A program made the position numbers and the translations under genes. 17,085 bases of DNA from Candidatus Latescibacterota bacterium (GTDB taxonomy: Bacteria > JAAXHH01 > JACQVL01): NCBI GenBank assembly GCA_016209865.1, contig JACQVL010000320.1, positions 1 to 17,085 on the forward strand, read 5' to 3'. Of the stretch, positions 6,963 to 16,503 are shown one piece after another. Each line of letters opens with the position of its first letter. Position 1 is the first letter of the stretch. Under the pieces are notes generated by a model that did not search any database, had not been told where the DNA came from, and saw nothing but the letters and a program-made list of their open reading frames with translations.

Positions 6963-7040
6963 GGGCAGATGGGCAGTCGGCAGGTAGGCAGTAGACGGGG
7001 GAGTGGCTTCTACTGCCTATTGCCCATTGCCTATCTGCCC
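6963..7040. repeat. Heptad-built inverted repeat between convergent genes
   Basis: The left arm (6963-6995) has GGCAG recurring every 7-8 nt. The right arm (7009-7040) has TGCC recurring every 7-8 nt, in units of the form TGCCTAT/TGCCCAT. The right arm is nearly the reverse complement of the left, with matches at both ends (GGGCAGAT and GGCAGTAGA), around a 13-nt centre. It fills most of the space between the creatininase and isomerase stops. It could serve as a two-way transcription end, although no T-tract is evident. Confidence 0.8.
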
Positions 7041-7057
7041 AGGAGCGGAGACGGGGG

Positions 7058-9615: not shown

Positions 9616-10452
9616 ATGCGCATCGCGCTGGCACAATTCACGGCGGAATCGACTCGACAAGACAGTGTCGAGAAGGCATTCGGGATGATGGAGCAGGCCG
9701 CCCAGGATGGGGCAGACGTCATCTGTTTCCCGGAAATGGCGTTCGATGTTTTCTTCCCACAGTTCCGGGCGGACCGGCAGTACTTCGCCTTAGCGGAGCC
9801 CATCCCCGGTCCGTTGGTCGAACAATTCCAGGCCAAGGCCCGCGCGCTGGGACTCGTCACCGTCATCAACCTGTTCGAGCGGGCCGCGCCGGGAGAATAC
9901 TACGACTGCTCTCCGGTGATCGACGCGGACGGCCGGTTGCTCGGCAAGAGCCGGATGATGCACATCGCGGAGTTGCCTCGGTACAACGAAAAATATTACT
10001 ACTGGGAAGGGAACACCGGATACCCCGTCTCTCTTACGCGGGCGGGGCGGATCGGCATCGCCATCTGCTACGACCGGCACTACCCGGAGCACGTCCGGGC
10101 GCTGGCCCTCCAGGGCGCGCAGGTGATGCTCGTCCCGACCGCCACCTCCCTCCCGGAGCTGGGCGCGATCTGGGAGCTGGAGATGCAGGCCGCCGCTGTG
10201 GCGAATCAGATGTTCATCGGAGTGGCTAACCGAATAGGACGCGAAGGCGACCTCACCTTCTTCGGCAGCAGCTTTGCGGTCAACCCGAAAGGCGAGGTCA
10301 TCGGCCGGGCGTCGAACGACCGGGAAGAAATCCTCTGCGTCGATTGCGACCTGCGTCTGATCGAGGAGATGCGCCAGCGTCTCCCGTTCCTCCGCGACCG
10401 CCGGCCGGAGACGTACGGGATGCTGTGCGAAGGTAAATCCCTGAGTCGGTGA
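9616..10452 (+). CDS. Carbon-nitrogen hydrolase (nitrilase superfamily amidase)
   Basis: 278 residues from ATG 9616, preceded by AAGGAG (9604-9609, spacing 6). The catalytic triad of the superfamily is visible: E40 in VICFPEMAF, K111 in LLGKSRMMH and C151 in IAICYDRHYPE. The length and the CYDRHYPE motif place it near N-carbamoylputrescine amidase, beta-ureidopropionase and N-carbamoyl-amino-acid hydrolases. These release ammonia and CO2 from carbamoyl or amide compounds in the cytoplasm. Which of these it is cannot be decided from motifs alone. It has its own promoter and a hairpin leader. The next gene also has its own promoter, so this one may be monocistronic. Confidence 0.92.
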   Translation: MRIALAQFTAESTRQDSVEKAFGMMEQAAQDGADVICFPEMAFDVFFPQFRADRQYFALAEPIPGPLVEQFQAKARALGLVTVINLFERAAPGEYYDCSPVIDADGRLLGKSRMMHIAELPRYNEKYYYWEGNTGYPVSLTRAGRIGIAICYDRHYPEHVRALALQGAQVMLVPTATSLPELGAIWELEMQAAAVANQMFIGVANRIGREGDLTFFGSSFAVNPKGEVIGRASNDREEILCVDCDLRLIEEMRQRLPFLRDRRPETYGMLCEGKSLSR

Positions 10453-10467
10453 TGCAGAAGGTCTTTG

Positions 10468-10496
10468 TTGACGCAAGAGGCCCGTCTCAGTATATT
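10468..10496 (+). promoter_or_regulatory. Sigma70-type promoter upstream of the LD-carboxypeptidase gene
   Basis: TTGACG (10468-10473), 17-nt spacer, TATATT (10491-10496). The transcript would start near 10503 and run through repeat copy B before the likely start codon at 10606. Confidence 0.65.
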
Positions 10497-10515
10497 TTGC
10501 CCAATCGAAAGAACG

Positions 10516-10598
10516 ATGGATTCCCACTTGTACGGGCATGACACCAGATTTTTCTCGTCACTCGTCACTTGTCACTCGTCACTGGTTTACCGACCACT
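10516..10598 (-). repeat. Heptad-bearing intergenic repeat, copy B (inverted relative to copy A)
   Basis: Read on the minus strand it gives AGTGGTCGGTA, then four AGTGACG-type heptads (one with A for the last G), GAGAAAAA, TCTGGTGTCATGCCCG and GAATCCAT. Copy A at 139-206 has the same order with only two heptads. It fills the leader between the promoter at 10468-10496 and ATG 10606. Its ATGGATTCCC...CGGGCATGAC end resembles a palindromic word often met in intergenic DNA of uncultured bacteria, which is a recollection and not a search result. Confidence 0.75.
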
Positions 10599-11587: not shown

Positions 11588-13105
11588 ATGGATCGCATCG
11601 GAATCATCGACTTAGGGTCGAACTCCGCGCGGCTGATGATCGCGCAGTACACGCCGGGACTCGCGTTCAAGGTGACCGATGAGGTCAGCCGCCGGGTCCG
11701 TCTGAGCGAGGGCATGGCCACTGAGAACGTCCTGCACCCGGCCGCCATCGACCGGGCGCTCGACACGTTGCAGGTCTTCCAGGCGTTCTGCCACGCCCAG
11801 GGCATTACCCGGATCGTCCCGGTGGCGACGGCCGCCGTCCGCGACGCCGCCAACGGAGAAGAGTTCCTGGCGCGGGTGCGCGCAGAGACCGGGCTGGAGT
11901 TTCGCGTGCTTACCGGCGAAGAGGAGGCGTACTGGGGAACGGTGGGCGTGGTCAACAGCCTGGGACTCCGCGATGGGTTTGTCATCGACATCGGCGGGGG
12001 CAGCGTGGAAATCAGCCAGGTGCAGCGGGGTGATTTCAAACGGGGCATCACCACACCGTTAGGGGCCGTCCGGCTCACCGAAACCTATGTGCACAGCGAC
12101 CCGGTTAAATCGTCAGAGGTCAAACGCTTGATCGACCACATCGCCGCCGCGTTCGAGGCGCTGACATGGATGACGCTGGAGTCCGGCGAACAGTTCGCGG
12201 GCATCGGCGGCACGATCCGCGCGCTCGTCCGGATCGACCGAGGGATGTCCGGGTATCCGCTCGGACTGGTTCACGGGTATGAACTCAAACTGAGCCGGCT
12301 GGACAGGCTGATCGACCGGCTCCTGTCCCTGCCGGTACACGAACGCGCCCGCAAGGTCCCCGGCCTGATGGCCGATCGGACGGACATCATCCTGGCGGGG
12401 ACGATGGTCGTGGCGGGTGCGCTGCGCCGGGCCGGGGCCGACCGGCTGGTGGTGTGCGGTCAGGGCCTGCGGGAGGGATTGCTCTACCGGGAGTTGCTCA
12501 AACCGGCCGACCCGCCCCTGATCCGGAACCTCCGCGAATTCAGCATCCTCAACATCGCCCGGCTGTACGGCTACGAACAGGCCCATACGAAACACGTCGC
12601 CGCGCTGGTGCTGTCGTTGTTCGATCAACTCGCCCCGGTGCACGGCTACGGTGCGCTGGAACGGGAGTACCTATGGGCCGCCGCGCAGTTGCACGACATC
12701 GGCACGGTCATCGACTACTACGACCATCACAAGCACTCGGCGTACATCATCCTCAATGCCGGGCTGCCGGGCTATTCCCACCGGGAGACCGTGTTGATCG
12801 CTCAATTGTGTCTCTACCATCGCAAAGGCAAGCCTAACCCGGAGCCGTACAGCCGTCTGCTCAAGGACGGGGATGTGAAACGCATCAACCGATTAGCCGC
12901 CCTCCTCCGGCTGGCCGAGTATCTCGACCGGAGCCGGGCGCAGACGGTGACCGATCTCCACGTGACGGCCACCGGGAAACAGGTCCGGCTGCGGGTAAAC
13001 GCCCGCACCTCCGCTGAGGCCCGCGTGGAAGTGTGGGAGGCTCAGCGCAACGCTGAGTTGTTCGAAGAGGCGTTTGGGTGCAAACTGGAGATCGAACAGG
13101 CATGA
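11588..13105 (+). CDS. Exopolyphosphatase / guanosine pentaphosphatase (Ppx/GppA) with HD-type C-terminal domain
   Basis: 505 residues, the length of the two-domain Ppx/GppA class. The actin-like ATPase fold is marked by GIIDLGSNSARLMI (5-18), the catalytic-Glu region LTGEEEAYWG (108-117) and the phosphate loop VIDIGGGSVE (132-141). The C-terminal half carries an HD-like domain with QLHDIG (H369-D370), then YYDHHKHSAYIILN and GYSHRE. Such enzymes degrade inorganic polyphosphate and often hydrolyse pppGpp, so they are linked to stress and stringent responses. The start ATG 11588 has only a weak upstream GTGAGAA, and expression is probably coupled to the S66 gene 17 nt upstream. Ppx and GppA activities cannot be separated by motif. 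Confidence 0.93.
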   Translation: MDRIGIIDLGSNSARLMIAQYTPGLAFKVTDEVSRRVRLSEGMATENVLHPAAIDRALDTLQVFQAFCHAQGITRIVPVATAAVRDAANGEEFLARVRAETGLEFRVLTGEEEAYWGTVGVVNSLGLRDGFVIDIGGGSVEISQVQRGDFKRGITTPLGAVRLTETYVHSDPVKSSEVKRLIDHIAAAFEALTWMTLESGEQFAGIGGTIRALVRIDRGMSGYPLGLVHGYELKLSRLDRLIDRLLSLPVHERARKVPGLMADRTDIILAGTMVVAGALRRAGADRLVVCGQGLREGLLYRELLKPADPPLIRNLREFSILNIARLYGYEQAHTKHVAALVLSLFDQLAPVHGYGALEREYLWAAAQLHDIGTVIDYYDHHKHSAYIILNAGLPGYSHRETVLIAQLCLYHRKGKPNPEPYSRLLKDGDVKRINRLAALLRLAEYLDRSRAQTVTDLHVTATGKQVRLRVNARTSAEARVEVWEAQRNAELFEEAFGCKLEIEQA

Positions 13106-13130
13106 ACAGCCCTCTACAGAAAGGATCACG

Positions 13131-13220
13131 ATGGACCGGATCGGAGTTGGCCTGATCGGCTGCGGGGTCATGGGGTCGGATTTGTCGAGAAAATGCGCTC
13201 AACTGGCGAGTGAAGAGTGA
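13131..13220 (+). pseudogene. N-terminal remnant of a Gfo/Idh/MocA oxidoreductase
   Basis: ATG 13131, preceded by AAAGGA (13120-13125, spacing 5), opens a 29-codon frame: MDRIGVGLIGCGVMGSDLSR followed by KCAQLASEE and TGA (13218-13220). The GVGLIGCGVMG segment is the first beta strand and NAD(P)-binding glycine loop of the Gfo/Idh/MocA family, whose members are normally 330-450 residues. All the remaining domain is gone. The break coincides with two AGTGAAG heptads at 13209-13222. An intact translation start with a lost body indicates recent decay by deletion. A genuine 29-residue peptide is possible but unlikely. Confidence 0.7.
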
Positions 13221-13222
13221 AG
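13209..13222 (+). repeat. Two AGTGAAG heptads at the Gfo/Idh break point
   Basis: AGTGAAG is repeated twice in tandem, differing by one base from the AGTGACG unit of copies A and B. It covers the end of the truncated oxidoreductase frame and its stop codon, and abuts the Shine-Dalgarno site AAAGGAG (13223-13229) of the SGNH gene. Confidence 0.6.
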
Positions 13223-13234
13223 AAAGGAGTACCT

Positions 13235-13993
13235 ATGAACGTTCAGGACCGCTGGCCGAAGCCGTTCGAGACGATGGTCGTCATGGGCGAGAGCACGGTG
13301 CAGGGCGGCCCGTGGCTCGACCGGACGGAGGATCGCTGGACAGACGTGCTCGTCCGGCTGATCAACGCCTGCCAGGAGAAACCGGTGACGTACCACAACA
13401 AGGGAATCGGGGCGAACGCCATTTCTCCGCGCAGCCCGGGTTACGCCAATTCCGCCAAGCCGAGCGCGCTCGAGCGGTACCGTGACGACGTCATCGCCCT
13501 CAAGCCCGACCTGTTCATCCTGTGTTACGGGCTGAACGACATGCGGGCGGGGATGAACGTCGAAGAATTCCGGTCGGACATGCAGACGATCATCCGGGAT
13601 GTCCAGGAGGACTGCTGTCCGTTGACTGTGTTGACGACCATCTACCACATGACCGGCTTCCGCAGCTTTCCCCCGTACGACAAGGGAGGGATTCGGCAGA
13701 CACAGGTGTACAACGAAGTCATCAGACAATTAGCGGAGGATCACGGCTGCCTGTTAGCCGATGTGTGGGACGCACAGGGGCTGGCGGACTGGCTGATCAA
13801 CCCGGACGGCGTCCATGCGAACGTCGTCGGCAACCTCATCATCGCGCACCGAGTGTTCGAGACGCTCGCCCGGTACTGCAGCGGGCTGACAGTCACGGCG
13901 CACGCGCACGATGCGGAGACGGCGTGGGGCAAAGGGGTGATCCCGCGCCGCGCGGCATGGGGCGACCCGTACACGACGGCGTGGGGAGCGTGA
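13235..13993 (+). CDS. SGNH/GDSL-type esterase
   Basis: 252 residues from ATG 13235, with AAAGGAG (13223-13229) 5 nt upstream. A GTG six codons earlier lies inside that site and is rejected. SGNH blocks are in order: GES (S20, block I with Glu where GDS has Asp), NKGIGAN (55-61, block II), CYGLNDMR (97-104, block III with N101) and NPDGVHANVVG (189-199, block V with D191 and H194). The enzyme would hydrolyse an ester, commonly an O-acetyl or other acyl group on a sugar. No signal peptide is seen, so it acts on internalised substrate. The C-terminus after about 215 is Ala/His/Trp-rich and not conserved in the usual fold. It opens the run of dioxygenase and dehydratase genes. Confidence 0.9.
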   Translation: MNVQDRWPKPFETMVVMGESTVQGGPWLDRTEDRWTDVLVRLINACQEKPVTYHNKGIGANAISPRSPGYANSAKPSALERYRDDVIALKPDLFILCYGLNDMRAGMNVEEFRSDMQTIIRDVQEDCCPLTVLTTIYHMTGFRSFPPYDKGGIRQTQVYNEVIRQLAEDHGCLLADVWDAQGLADWLINPDGVHANVVGNLIIAHRVFETLARYCSGLTVTAHAHDAETAWGKGVIPRRAAWGDPYTTAWGA

Positions 13994-14044: not shown

Positions 14045-14803
14045 GTGGAATTGACCCAGCAACAACAGCTCCAGAAGCAATTTTTTGAGGATTTCGGGTA
14101 TCTCTTCATCCCCGGCCTGCTGAAGGATGAGATCGACTGGATCACCGAAGAATTTGAAGCAGTCTTCCGGGAGAGCGGGATCGTCCACGACGGGACGAAG
14201 CGTTCCGGCTTCGGCCCGTTCATCGAGCGGAGTGAGCGTCTCTGCACGATCATCGACCATCCCGGCATGGTCAACATGCTCACCGCCATCCTGGGCGAGG
14301 ATTTCAACTACATGGGGAGCGCGGGCGAGCTGTACGTCGGTGACGGCCTCTGGCACCCCGACGGAGTGTTCAAGGTCGTGAAGTACGTGAAAGTTGCGCT
14401 CTACCTTGATCCGCTCACGCGCGAGAGCGGTGCCTTGCGCCTCGTCCCCGGTTCGCATCTACGAGGATATGAAGGCAACCAGGACACGATGGAACGGTGG
14501 GGGATCGGGCCGCATGATGTCCCATGCGTCGCACCGGACAACCAGCCCGGGGACGTGGCCGCCTTCAACCTGAACACTTTGCACAACTCCCTCAACGGCG
14601 GCAATCGACGACGGATGCTGAACTTCGGCTGCAGCGAACACTGCGAGACGGAGGAACAACTTCAGGACCTGAAATGCCGGCTGCCGCTGTCCCTGGATCG
14701 CCTGTTCTCAGACGTGATGCTGCGGACGGCCTCGCCGGAGCGGATGCGCCATCTGCGGCAATCGTTGGAGATCGTTGCCCAACGCCCGTTATCGCAGCAA
14801 TGA
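14045..14803 (+). CDS. Phytanoyl-CoA dioxygenase (PhyH) family protein
   Basis: 252 residues from GTG 14045, the in-frame start 5 nt after AAGGAGG (14033-14039). The frame extends to 14015, but no ribosome site supports that. The N-terminus QKQFFEDFGYLFIPGLL is the family opening. Fe(II) ligands are H104 and D106 in LWHPDGVF and H180 in NTLHNSLN, with an Arg-rich NRRRML stretch after it that should hold 2-oxoglutarate. LYLDPLTRESGALRLVPGSH is the conserved core before the distal histidine. Such enzymes hydroxylate many small molecules, so the phytanoyl name does not give the substrate. Its stop overlaps the start of the dehydratase gene by ATGA, indicating translational coupling and probably a shared pathway. 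Confidence 0.92.
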   Translation: MELTQQQQLQKQFFEDFGYLFIPGLLKDEIDWITEEFEAVFRESGIVHDGTKRSGFGPFIERSERLCTIIDHPGMVNMLTAILGEDFNYMGSAGELYVGDGLWHPDGVFKVVKYVKVALYLDPLTRESGALRLVPGSHLRGYEGNQDTMERWGIGPHDVPCVAPDNQPGDVAAFNLNTLHNSLNGGNRRRMLNFGCSEHCETEEQLQDLKCRLPLSLDRLFSDVMLRTASPERMRHLRQSLEIVAQRPLSQQ

Positions 14804-16503
14804 TGCCTATGCAACCACGCGGCGTCGATCAGAACTTCACCTCATACGGGGATGCCGGGTTCAGCCGATACCTGCGCCGGGCGTTCTTAGCGTCGACTGG
14901 GTTTGACGGGACCGACCTCGACCGCCCGGTCGTGGGGATCGCGGATACGTCATCCGATTACACGACCTGCCATCGAGACATGCCCGCCCTCATCCAGGCG
15001 GTGAAACGGGGGGTGCTCCAGGCGGGCGGCCTGCCTCTGGCCTTCCCGACCATCTCGCTCGCCGAGATTCTGCTCTCCCCGACGTCGATGCTCTACCGCA
15101 ACCTGTTAGCGATGGAGACGGAGGAGATGCTGCACGCCCAGCCGATGGACGCGGTCGTCCTCGTCGGCGGGTGCGATAAGACCGTCCCGGCGCAACTCAT
15201 GGCGGCCGCGTCCGCCAACCTTCCCGCCATCTCCGTCGTCACCGGCCCGATGCTGACCGGGAGCTGGCGCGGGGAACGGATCGGCGCGTGTACGGATTGT
15301 CGTCGCTACTGGCTGTTGCATCGCGCGGGCGACGTGGACGACCGCCAAATCGCGGAGGTGCAGCAGTCGCTGTGCCCGACCGGGGGCACGTGTATGGTCA
15401 TGGGCACGGCGTCCACGATGGCTTGCCTGACGGAAGGGTTAGGGTTGATGCTCCCCGGCGGGGCCACCCCGCCGTCCGGGTCGGGCGACCGGCTGCGGCA
15501 GGCGGTCGAGTCCGGCCGGTGCGCGGTTGAACTGGCCACCCGCCAACTCCAGCCCCGGACGATCGTGCAGCGGGCGGCGCTGCTCAACGCCCTCACCGTG
15601 CTGATGGCGCTGAGTGGCTCCACAAACGGCATCATCCACCTCATCGCCATCGCGCGACGGGCGGGGGTGACGCTCACTCTTGAGGATGTGCATGAGGTCT
15701 CCCAGCGGGTGCCGCTCCTGGTCGACTGTAAACCGGCTGGCTGTGGGTACATGGAAGACTTCCACCGCGCGGGCGGAGTCCCCGTCCTGCTCAAGGCGCT
15801 GCACCCACTGCTCGACCTGTCGGTCATGACCGTCACCGGCCGTACCCTGGGCGAAGTCCTCCACGACGTCCCGCCGCCCGGCGGCTGGCAGCAGACGATC
15901 AGGACGCTCGATAGTCCGTTCGGGCCGCCCGGCTCGTTGGTCGTCTTGCGGGGCTCCCTGGCGCCGGACGGCGCGGTCATCAAACGTGCGGCGGCCACGC
16001 CCGGCCTCCTGCAGCATCGAGGCCCGGCGGTCGTCTTCGAGTCGCCTGAGGACGTGGCGGCGCGGATCGACGATCCTGACGTGACGATCACCCCTGACCA
16101 CATCTTAGTGCTGCGGAACGCCGGGCCGGTCGGCGCGGGGATGCCCGAGGCAGGATCGTTCCCCATCCCACGGCGGCTGGCCTCGGCTGGGGTGCGGGAC
16201 ATGGTGCGGGTGTCCGATGCCCGGATGAGCGGCACGGCATACGGGACGGTGGTGTTGCACTGCTCGCCTGAAGCCGCCACGGGCGGGCCGCTGGCGTTCG
16301 TGCGCGACGGTGACCTGATTGAGCTGAACGTGGCGGAGCGCCGGATCGACCTGCTCGTGGACGACACGGAACTGGCCCGCCGCCGGGCGCAGTTCGTCCC
16401 GCCTCCCCTTCCCGAACGCGGCTGGCGGCGGCTCTACGCGCAGCATGTGCTCCCCGCCCATCTCGGAGCGGACCTGGATTTCCTCTCATCAGCCCTACCA
16501 TGA
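14800..16503 (+). CDS. IlvD/Edd family dehydratase, sugar-acid type
   Basis: 567 residues from ATG 14800. ATG 14803 and ATG 14809 are alternatives, and no strong ribosome site is seen, consistent with coupling to the PhyH-like gene. The three cluster cysteines are C57 in TTCHRDMP, C125 in GGCDKTVPA and C198 in GGTCMVMGTASTM. The metal/substrate Lys is K127, and the second signature is VSDARMSGTAYGTVVLHCSPEA. The C-D-K-T-x-P-A form and GPMLTGSWRGERIG are closer to pentonate/hexonate dehydratases (arabinonate, xylonate) than to dihydroxy-acid dehydratase. These remove water from an aldonic acid to give a 2-keto-3-deoxy acid. An unusual extra CxxC (C164, C167) lies between the second and third cluster cysteines. 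No isoleucine/valine genes are nearby. Confidence 0.92.
   Translation: MMPMQPRGVDQNFTSYGDAGFSRYLRRAFLASTGFDGTDLDRPVVGIADTSSDYTTCHRDMPALIQAVKRGVLQAGGLPLAFPTISLAEILLSPTSMLYRNLLAMETEEMLHAQPMDAVVLVGGCDKTVPAQLMAAASANLPAISVVTGPMLTGSWRGERIGACTDCRRYWLLHRAGDVDDRQIAEVQQSLCPTGGTCMVMGTASTMACLTEGLGLMLPGGATPPSGSGDRLRQAVESGRCAVELATRQLQPRTIVQRAALLNALTVLMALSGSTNGIIHLIAIARRAGVTLTLEDVHEVSQRVPLLVDCKPAGCGYMEDFHRAGGVPVLLKALHPLLDLSVMTVTGRTLGEVLHDVPPPGGWQQTIRTLDSPFGPPGSLVVLRGSLAPDGAVIKRAAATPGLLQHRGPAVVFESPEDVAARIDDPDVTITPDHILVLRNAGPVGAGMPEAGSFPIPRRLASAGVRDMVRVSDARMSGTAYGTVVLHCSPEAATGGPLAFVRDGDLIELNVAERRIDLLVDDTELARRRAQFVPPPLPERGWRRLYAQHVLPAHLGADLDFLSSALP

Follow-up and report, generated by a model that had tools for sequence, protein, structure and literature searches.

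An apparent remnant of a Gfo/Idh/MocA-type dehydrogenase gene that ends inside a dispersed heptad array

Dehydrogenases of the Gfo/Idh/MocA family join a Rossmann domain (PF01408) to a substrate domain (PF02894/PF22725). RecA-independent deletion between short direct repeats, a route by which genes decay, is known in E. coli (PMC5426353). Dispersed arrays of the heptamer TAACTGA have been described in Beggiatoaceae, Cyanobacteria, and Bacteroidetes; these sets lie mostly just before start codons, and some overlap the stop codon of the preceding gene (PMC4679880).

Here we compare these systems with a locus in a Candidatus Latescibacterota bacterium. The window, the whole stretch of DNA that was analyzed (17,085 nucleotides), is contig C277 of the home assembly (G000; 3.75 Mb in 356 contigs, estimated 83% complete), and the features of the locus are listed in Table 1. 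A 29-codon frame in the window has 25 residues, including a GxGxxG motif, that match full members of the Gfo/Idh/MocA family in two relatives. Some 92% of a family protein is absent from it; neither the remainder of the Rossmann domain nor any of the substrate domain is left. As in gene decay by short-repeat deletion (PMC5426353), one end of the break lies exactly in a tandem array. In contrast to that process, no second repeat copy is evident within the gene, and the locus also gained a new gene. The repeats, AGTGA(C/A)G, are like TAACTGA (PMC4679880) in that they form short tandem heptamers that are dispersed, mainly intergenic, and in some cases overlap stop codons. They differ from it in their unit (AGTGACG or AGTGAAG) and in their preferred site, which is just after a same-strand stop codon and not before a start codon. 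The locus is thus a clear case of gene loss, backed by synteny, in which the break falls within a dispersed heptad array; we regard it as an ordinary repeat-associated loss and as one more instance of a familiar kind of event.

Table 1. Features of the locus, with positions in the window
Feature	Position	Strand	Basis
Ppx/GppA-type exopolyphosphatase gene (ppx), left neighbor	11588..13105	+	Pfam PF02541 E 3.1e-58, PF21447
AAGGA ribosome site of the remnant, 5 bases ahead of ATG	13121..13125	+	sequence
Gfo/Idh remnant, 29 codons + TGA	13131..13220	+	similarity to syntenic orthologs in G013/G011
Heptad array, 2.3 copies of AGTGAAG, gives the remnant its stop codon	13208..13223	+	repeat search
AAAGGAG ribosome site of the SGNH gene, abuts the array	13223..13229	+	sequence
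SGNH/GDSL hydrolase gene, in place of the lost gfo body	13235..13993	+	PF13472 E 1.3e-19
PhyH (phytanoyl-CoA dioxygenase-like) gene (phyH), conserved right neighbor	14045..14803	+	PF05721
IlvD/EDD-type dehydratase gene (ilvD), next conserved neighbor, start codon uncertain	14641..16503	+	PF00920 E 8.7e-102; NF004784

Identity of the 29-codon frame

The frame (MDRIGVGLIGCGVMGSDLSRKCAQLASEE, then a stop) opens with the ATG at 13131, runs in sense codons to 13217, and closes with the TGA at 13218-13220. Residues 10-15 form a dinucleotide-binding loop, GCGVMG. The TGA sits in the second of two AGTGAAG heptads, 14 bases ahead of the start codon of the SGNH gene (ATG at 13235). The first-pass annotation had described a frame that keeps its ribosome site, start codon, and binding loop and whose heptad end runs into the next ribosome site, and all of these details are correct.

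Members of the Gfo/Idh/MocA family carry an N-terminal Rossmann domain (about 120 residues) that scores over the Pfam cut-off. The frame does not: too short to pass alone, it gave NAD_binding_2 at E 0.022, under the cut-off. To find its counterparts, we used 16 genomes of the same order, the home genome among them, a set in which the nearest kinship is the order. Besides the window itself, a search of this set with the 29 residues returned one outstanding match each in two genomes, G013 (64% over 25 aa, E 2.5e-6) and G011 (60% over 25 aa, E 6.6e-5), while the next-best matches in these genomes, at E about 0.4, were ~10^5 and nearly 10^4 times weaker. Both outstanding matches belong to intact, full-length Gfo/Idh genes (337 aa in G013 and 334 aa in G011) that start directly behind the ppx ortholog and are preceded by ribosome sites like that of the frame. 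Their products are 69% identical to each other and carry the PF01408 Rossmann and C-terminal domains; among curated entries, inositol 2-dehydrogenase came closest, though far short of its cut-off.

In the home genome, 73 PF01408 (Gfo/Idh) matches remain. The best of the home proteins was 37% identical to the intact protein over its full length, which we read as paralog level, and a search with the 29-residue frame or its DNA returned only weak paralog loops and other heptad arrays. As is typical of a pseudogene, an intact ortholog therefore occupies the same place in relatives while none was found elsewhere in the 83%-complete home assembly. On this synteny and on similarity to the intact orthologs, we judge the frame to be a true remnant of a Gfo/Idh/MocA-type gene, hereafter gfo.

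Homology of the remnant to the orthologs ends at L25. Codons 1-25 are kept, and the tail (A-S-E-E-stop) derives from the heptads or from DNA beside them. Of the Rossmann fold, only the first strand, the glycine loop, and the beginning of the helix after it are retained; the C-terminal substrate domain (PF02894/PF22725) is absent, and the DNA past codon 29 codes for the SGNH hydrolase. The remnant cannot be an enzyme and, if translated, is at most a short leader frame that ends before the SGNH start. One could suppose that it is just such a leader, kept by selection because its translation and termination control how the SGNH gene is expressed. The start codon, ribosome site, and frame are intact, the stop lies close to the SGNH start, and the identity of the frame to the intact orthologs (60-64%) equals that of Ppx (60-62%). 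However, a gene disrupted recently compared with the split of the families would be expected to show the same level of identity, residues 1-15 are simply the conserved Rossmann motif, and the frame is known from a single sequence; we consider a selected leader quite improbable.

Gene order in related genomes

The window and its relatives share the core LdcA - ppx - phyH - ilvD (for G003, G007, and G008, the reading covered the surroundings of ppx and phyH), and 13 genomes of the order have ppx orthologs that are 57-62% identical. G013 has the arrangement ppx - gfo - phyH, whereas in G011 a different gene, at the end of the contig, comes after ppx - gfo. In G001 and the genomes of genus g3, phyH comes directly after ppx, at about 25-150 bp where the gap was read. 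Neither gfo nor a recognizable remnant lies between these two genes in G001 and the g3 genomes, and a search of these genomes found no Gfo/Idh above 38% to the G013 protein. In the window, the SGNH gene stands between the remnant and phyH.

The first-pass annotation had named, as a finding that would confirm a deletion, an intact gene between ppx and the SGNH gene in related genomes. An intact Gfo/Idh gene behind ppx is indeed present in G013 and G011, but PhyH and not SGNH comes next in G013. More than a deletion alone is thus needed, and the SGNH gene has arrived or been rearranged as well. The opposite outcome, that all relatives share the short frame, was not seen: no relative read has it, and none is closer than the order.

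The first-pass annotation had further proposed that a neighboring catabolic cluster lost its dehydrogenase step. This is not supported: of 13 relatives whose locus could be read, 11 keep ppx-phyH but have no gfo there, which argues against the cluster needing the dehydrogenase, and numerous Gfo/Idh matches persist in the home genome (see above). The loss of gfo is thus a minor point in itself. In a concatenated tree whose backbone is unresolved, genus g3 (without gfo) is placed beside G013 (with gfo) at a support of 85. Judging from these comparisons, gfo probably predates the split of the window's family from those of G013 and G011. It was probably later lost in g3, lost or never there in G001, and truncated in the window.

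The junction array and its genome-wide family

The window holds just two copies of AGTGAAG, arranged in tandem (13209-13215 and 13216-13222). Two occurrences in 17 kb could be chance, since 54 of 200 shuffles reached two. Genome-wide, the tandem array is not chance: the dimer AGTGAMGAGTGAMG (AGTGA(C/A)G) has 267 matches in the home genome compared to 0 for a reversed control. AGTGACG predominates, and AGTGAAG is a minor variant. The same dimer has 6 matches in G013 and 0 in the 14 other genomes of the order. The wider point of this locus is a heptad family, curious in itself, that marks gene ends in the home genome; the 15 other genomes of the order have few or no members of it.

To locate the arrays relative to genes we used 0.79 Mb of fetched home contigs with gene calls that are ORF-based and crude; counts of arrays "inside" genes were accordingly left out. 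Of 59 arrays in these contigs, 32 begin no more than 25 bp from a same-strand stop codon, against an expectation of 6.5 and a maximum of 14 from 1000 random placements among intergenic gaps. Across the home genome, the preceding gene often takes its stop codon from the array. Unlike the TAACTGA sets (PMC4679880), some arrays form inverted pairs about 90-140 bp apart (C29:1910/2002, C36:1207/1302, and C109:3376/3490). The window itself has arrays at 148-250 and 10554-10583 in addition to the one at the junction.

An expectation that heptads would flank the intact gene was borne out in part. In G013, the intact gfo has a short-repeat array (GATGGGCAGGTGGGCAG, then GTGATTTA/GTGATTTG/GTGATTGA) that starts at its stop codon; the repeat unit, however, is an octad and not AGTGAAG.

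A broader proposal is that deletions repeatedly end in post-stop AGTGA(C/A)G arrays, shortening spacers and at times the preceding genes, and that the gfo remnant is an extreme case of this. We hold this to be quite improbable. An eye scan of the 0.79 Mb for short sense frames that end at other arrays revealed no second clear truncated gene.

Other short repeats also occur. An inverted pair of GGCAG(N) 7-8-mers lies between two convergent genes at 6964-7041 of the window, and ACCGACC heptads lie opposite an AGTGACG arm at 218-249; these suggest several heptad families of like layout. Palindromes like ATTCCCGCGAAAGCGGGAATCCA are frequent in spacers beside heptad arrays, both in the window (10450-10560) and on other home contigs (for example C15, C35, and C117), and they presumably resemble the dRS3-type repeats of Neisseria.

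Route of the gene loss

The most probable history, in our assessment, is that the frame is the dead 5' fragment of a Gfo/Idh/MocA-type gene once located between ppx and phyH, and that the placement of an SGNH gene beside it was followed by a deletion with one end in the array. In the order of events that we infer, the SGNH hydrolase gene would first have come between gfo and phyH. A single deletion would then have run from about gfo codon 25-28 to an AGTGAAG array, with ~310 codons gone. Given the stop-codon preference of the arrays, the one at 13208, which would have served as the right end, most simply once followed gfo's own stop codon; otherwise it would have lain in the gap before the SGNH gene. 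The left junction may have formed by slippage or short-repeat annealing at a few bases that happened to resemble the heptad.

A deletion between repeats leaves a repeat copy at the junction, and the array at 13208-13223 is one. An endpoint in this array is well supported by the genome-wide family and by its 32 of 59 members near same-strand stops. The first-pass annotation had attributed the deletion to recombination or slippage between two heptads. The break does fall exactly at an array of this family, but the second heptad, inside the gene, is unproven and only assumed: sense AGTGAAG occurs just 17 times in 498 kb of coding sequence (0.034 per kb), and neither of the intact orthologs, which are distant, has a heptad at the corresponding place. 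A sense AGTGAAG within gfo was a priori improbable; a shorter match, or none, would suffice at the left end. RecA-independent deletion between short repeats is documented, so no new mechanism is needed.

Could the junction instead have been made by the assembler, in a misjoin at the heptad array that dropped an intact gfo from the contig? The assembly is fragmented and incomplete and holds hundreds of such arrays. However, both flanks are syntenic with relatives (LdcA-ppx on one side and phyH-ilvD on the other), which argues against a chimeric contig, and no gfo body lies on any other contig. Furthermore, two tandem heptads in this frame contain a stop codon, so an intact gfo could hold at most one heptad copy of 7-10 bases, which is too short for a k-mer misjoin given how short-read assemblers work. 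A misjoin is therefore very unlikely.

A one-step replacement, in which an SGNH-bearing segment, with a heptad array ahead of the gene, took the place of the 3' part of gfo and no separate repeat deletion occurred, deserves more weight. The SGNH gene occupies precisely the site expected for the gfo body, none of the relatives read has it there, and the single close relative detected belongs to another phylum. On the other hand, it uses codons much as the rest of the genome does (76th percentile), with no sign of recent arrival, and the arrays' preference for a post-stop position on the same strand fits gfo's own array better. We regard replacement as possible but rather unlikely, and the two-step history remains our preferred account.

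Close relatives of the SGNH protein seem very rare. A scan of about 85,000 species genomes, of a kind that detects close relatives only, found a single one, 61% identical, in a Terriglobia MAG (L071:5001-5744). We considered the L071 locus as a clue to the history of gfo and rejected it: the preceding gene encodes a putative polysaccharide-lyase-like protein, not a Gfo/Idh dehydrogenase, and the neighborhood is different. The L071 homolog also bears an added twin-arginine-like leader, unlike the SGNH protein of the window (13235-13993).
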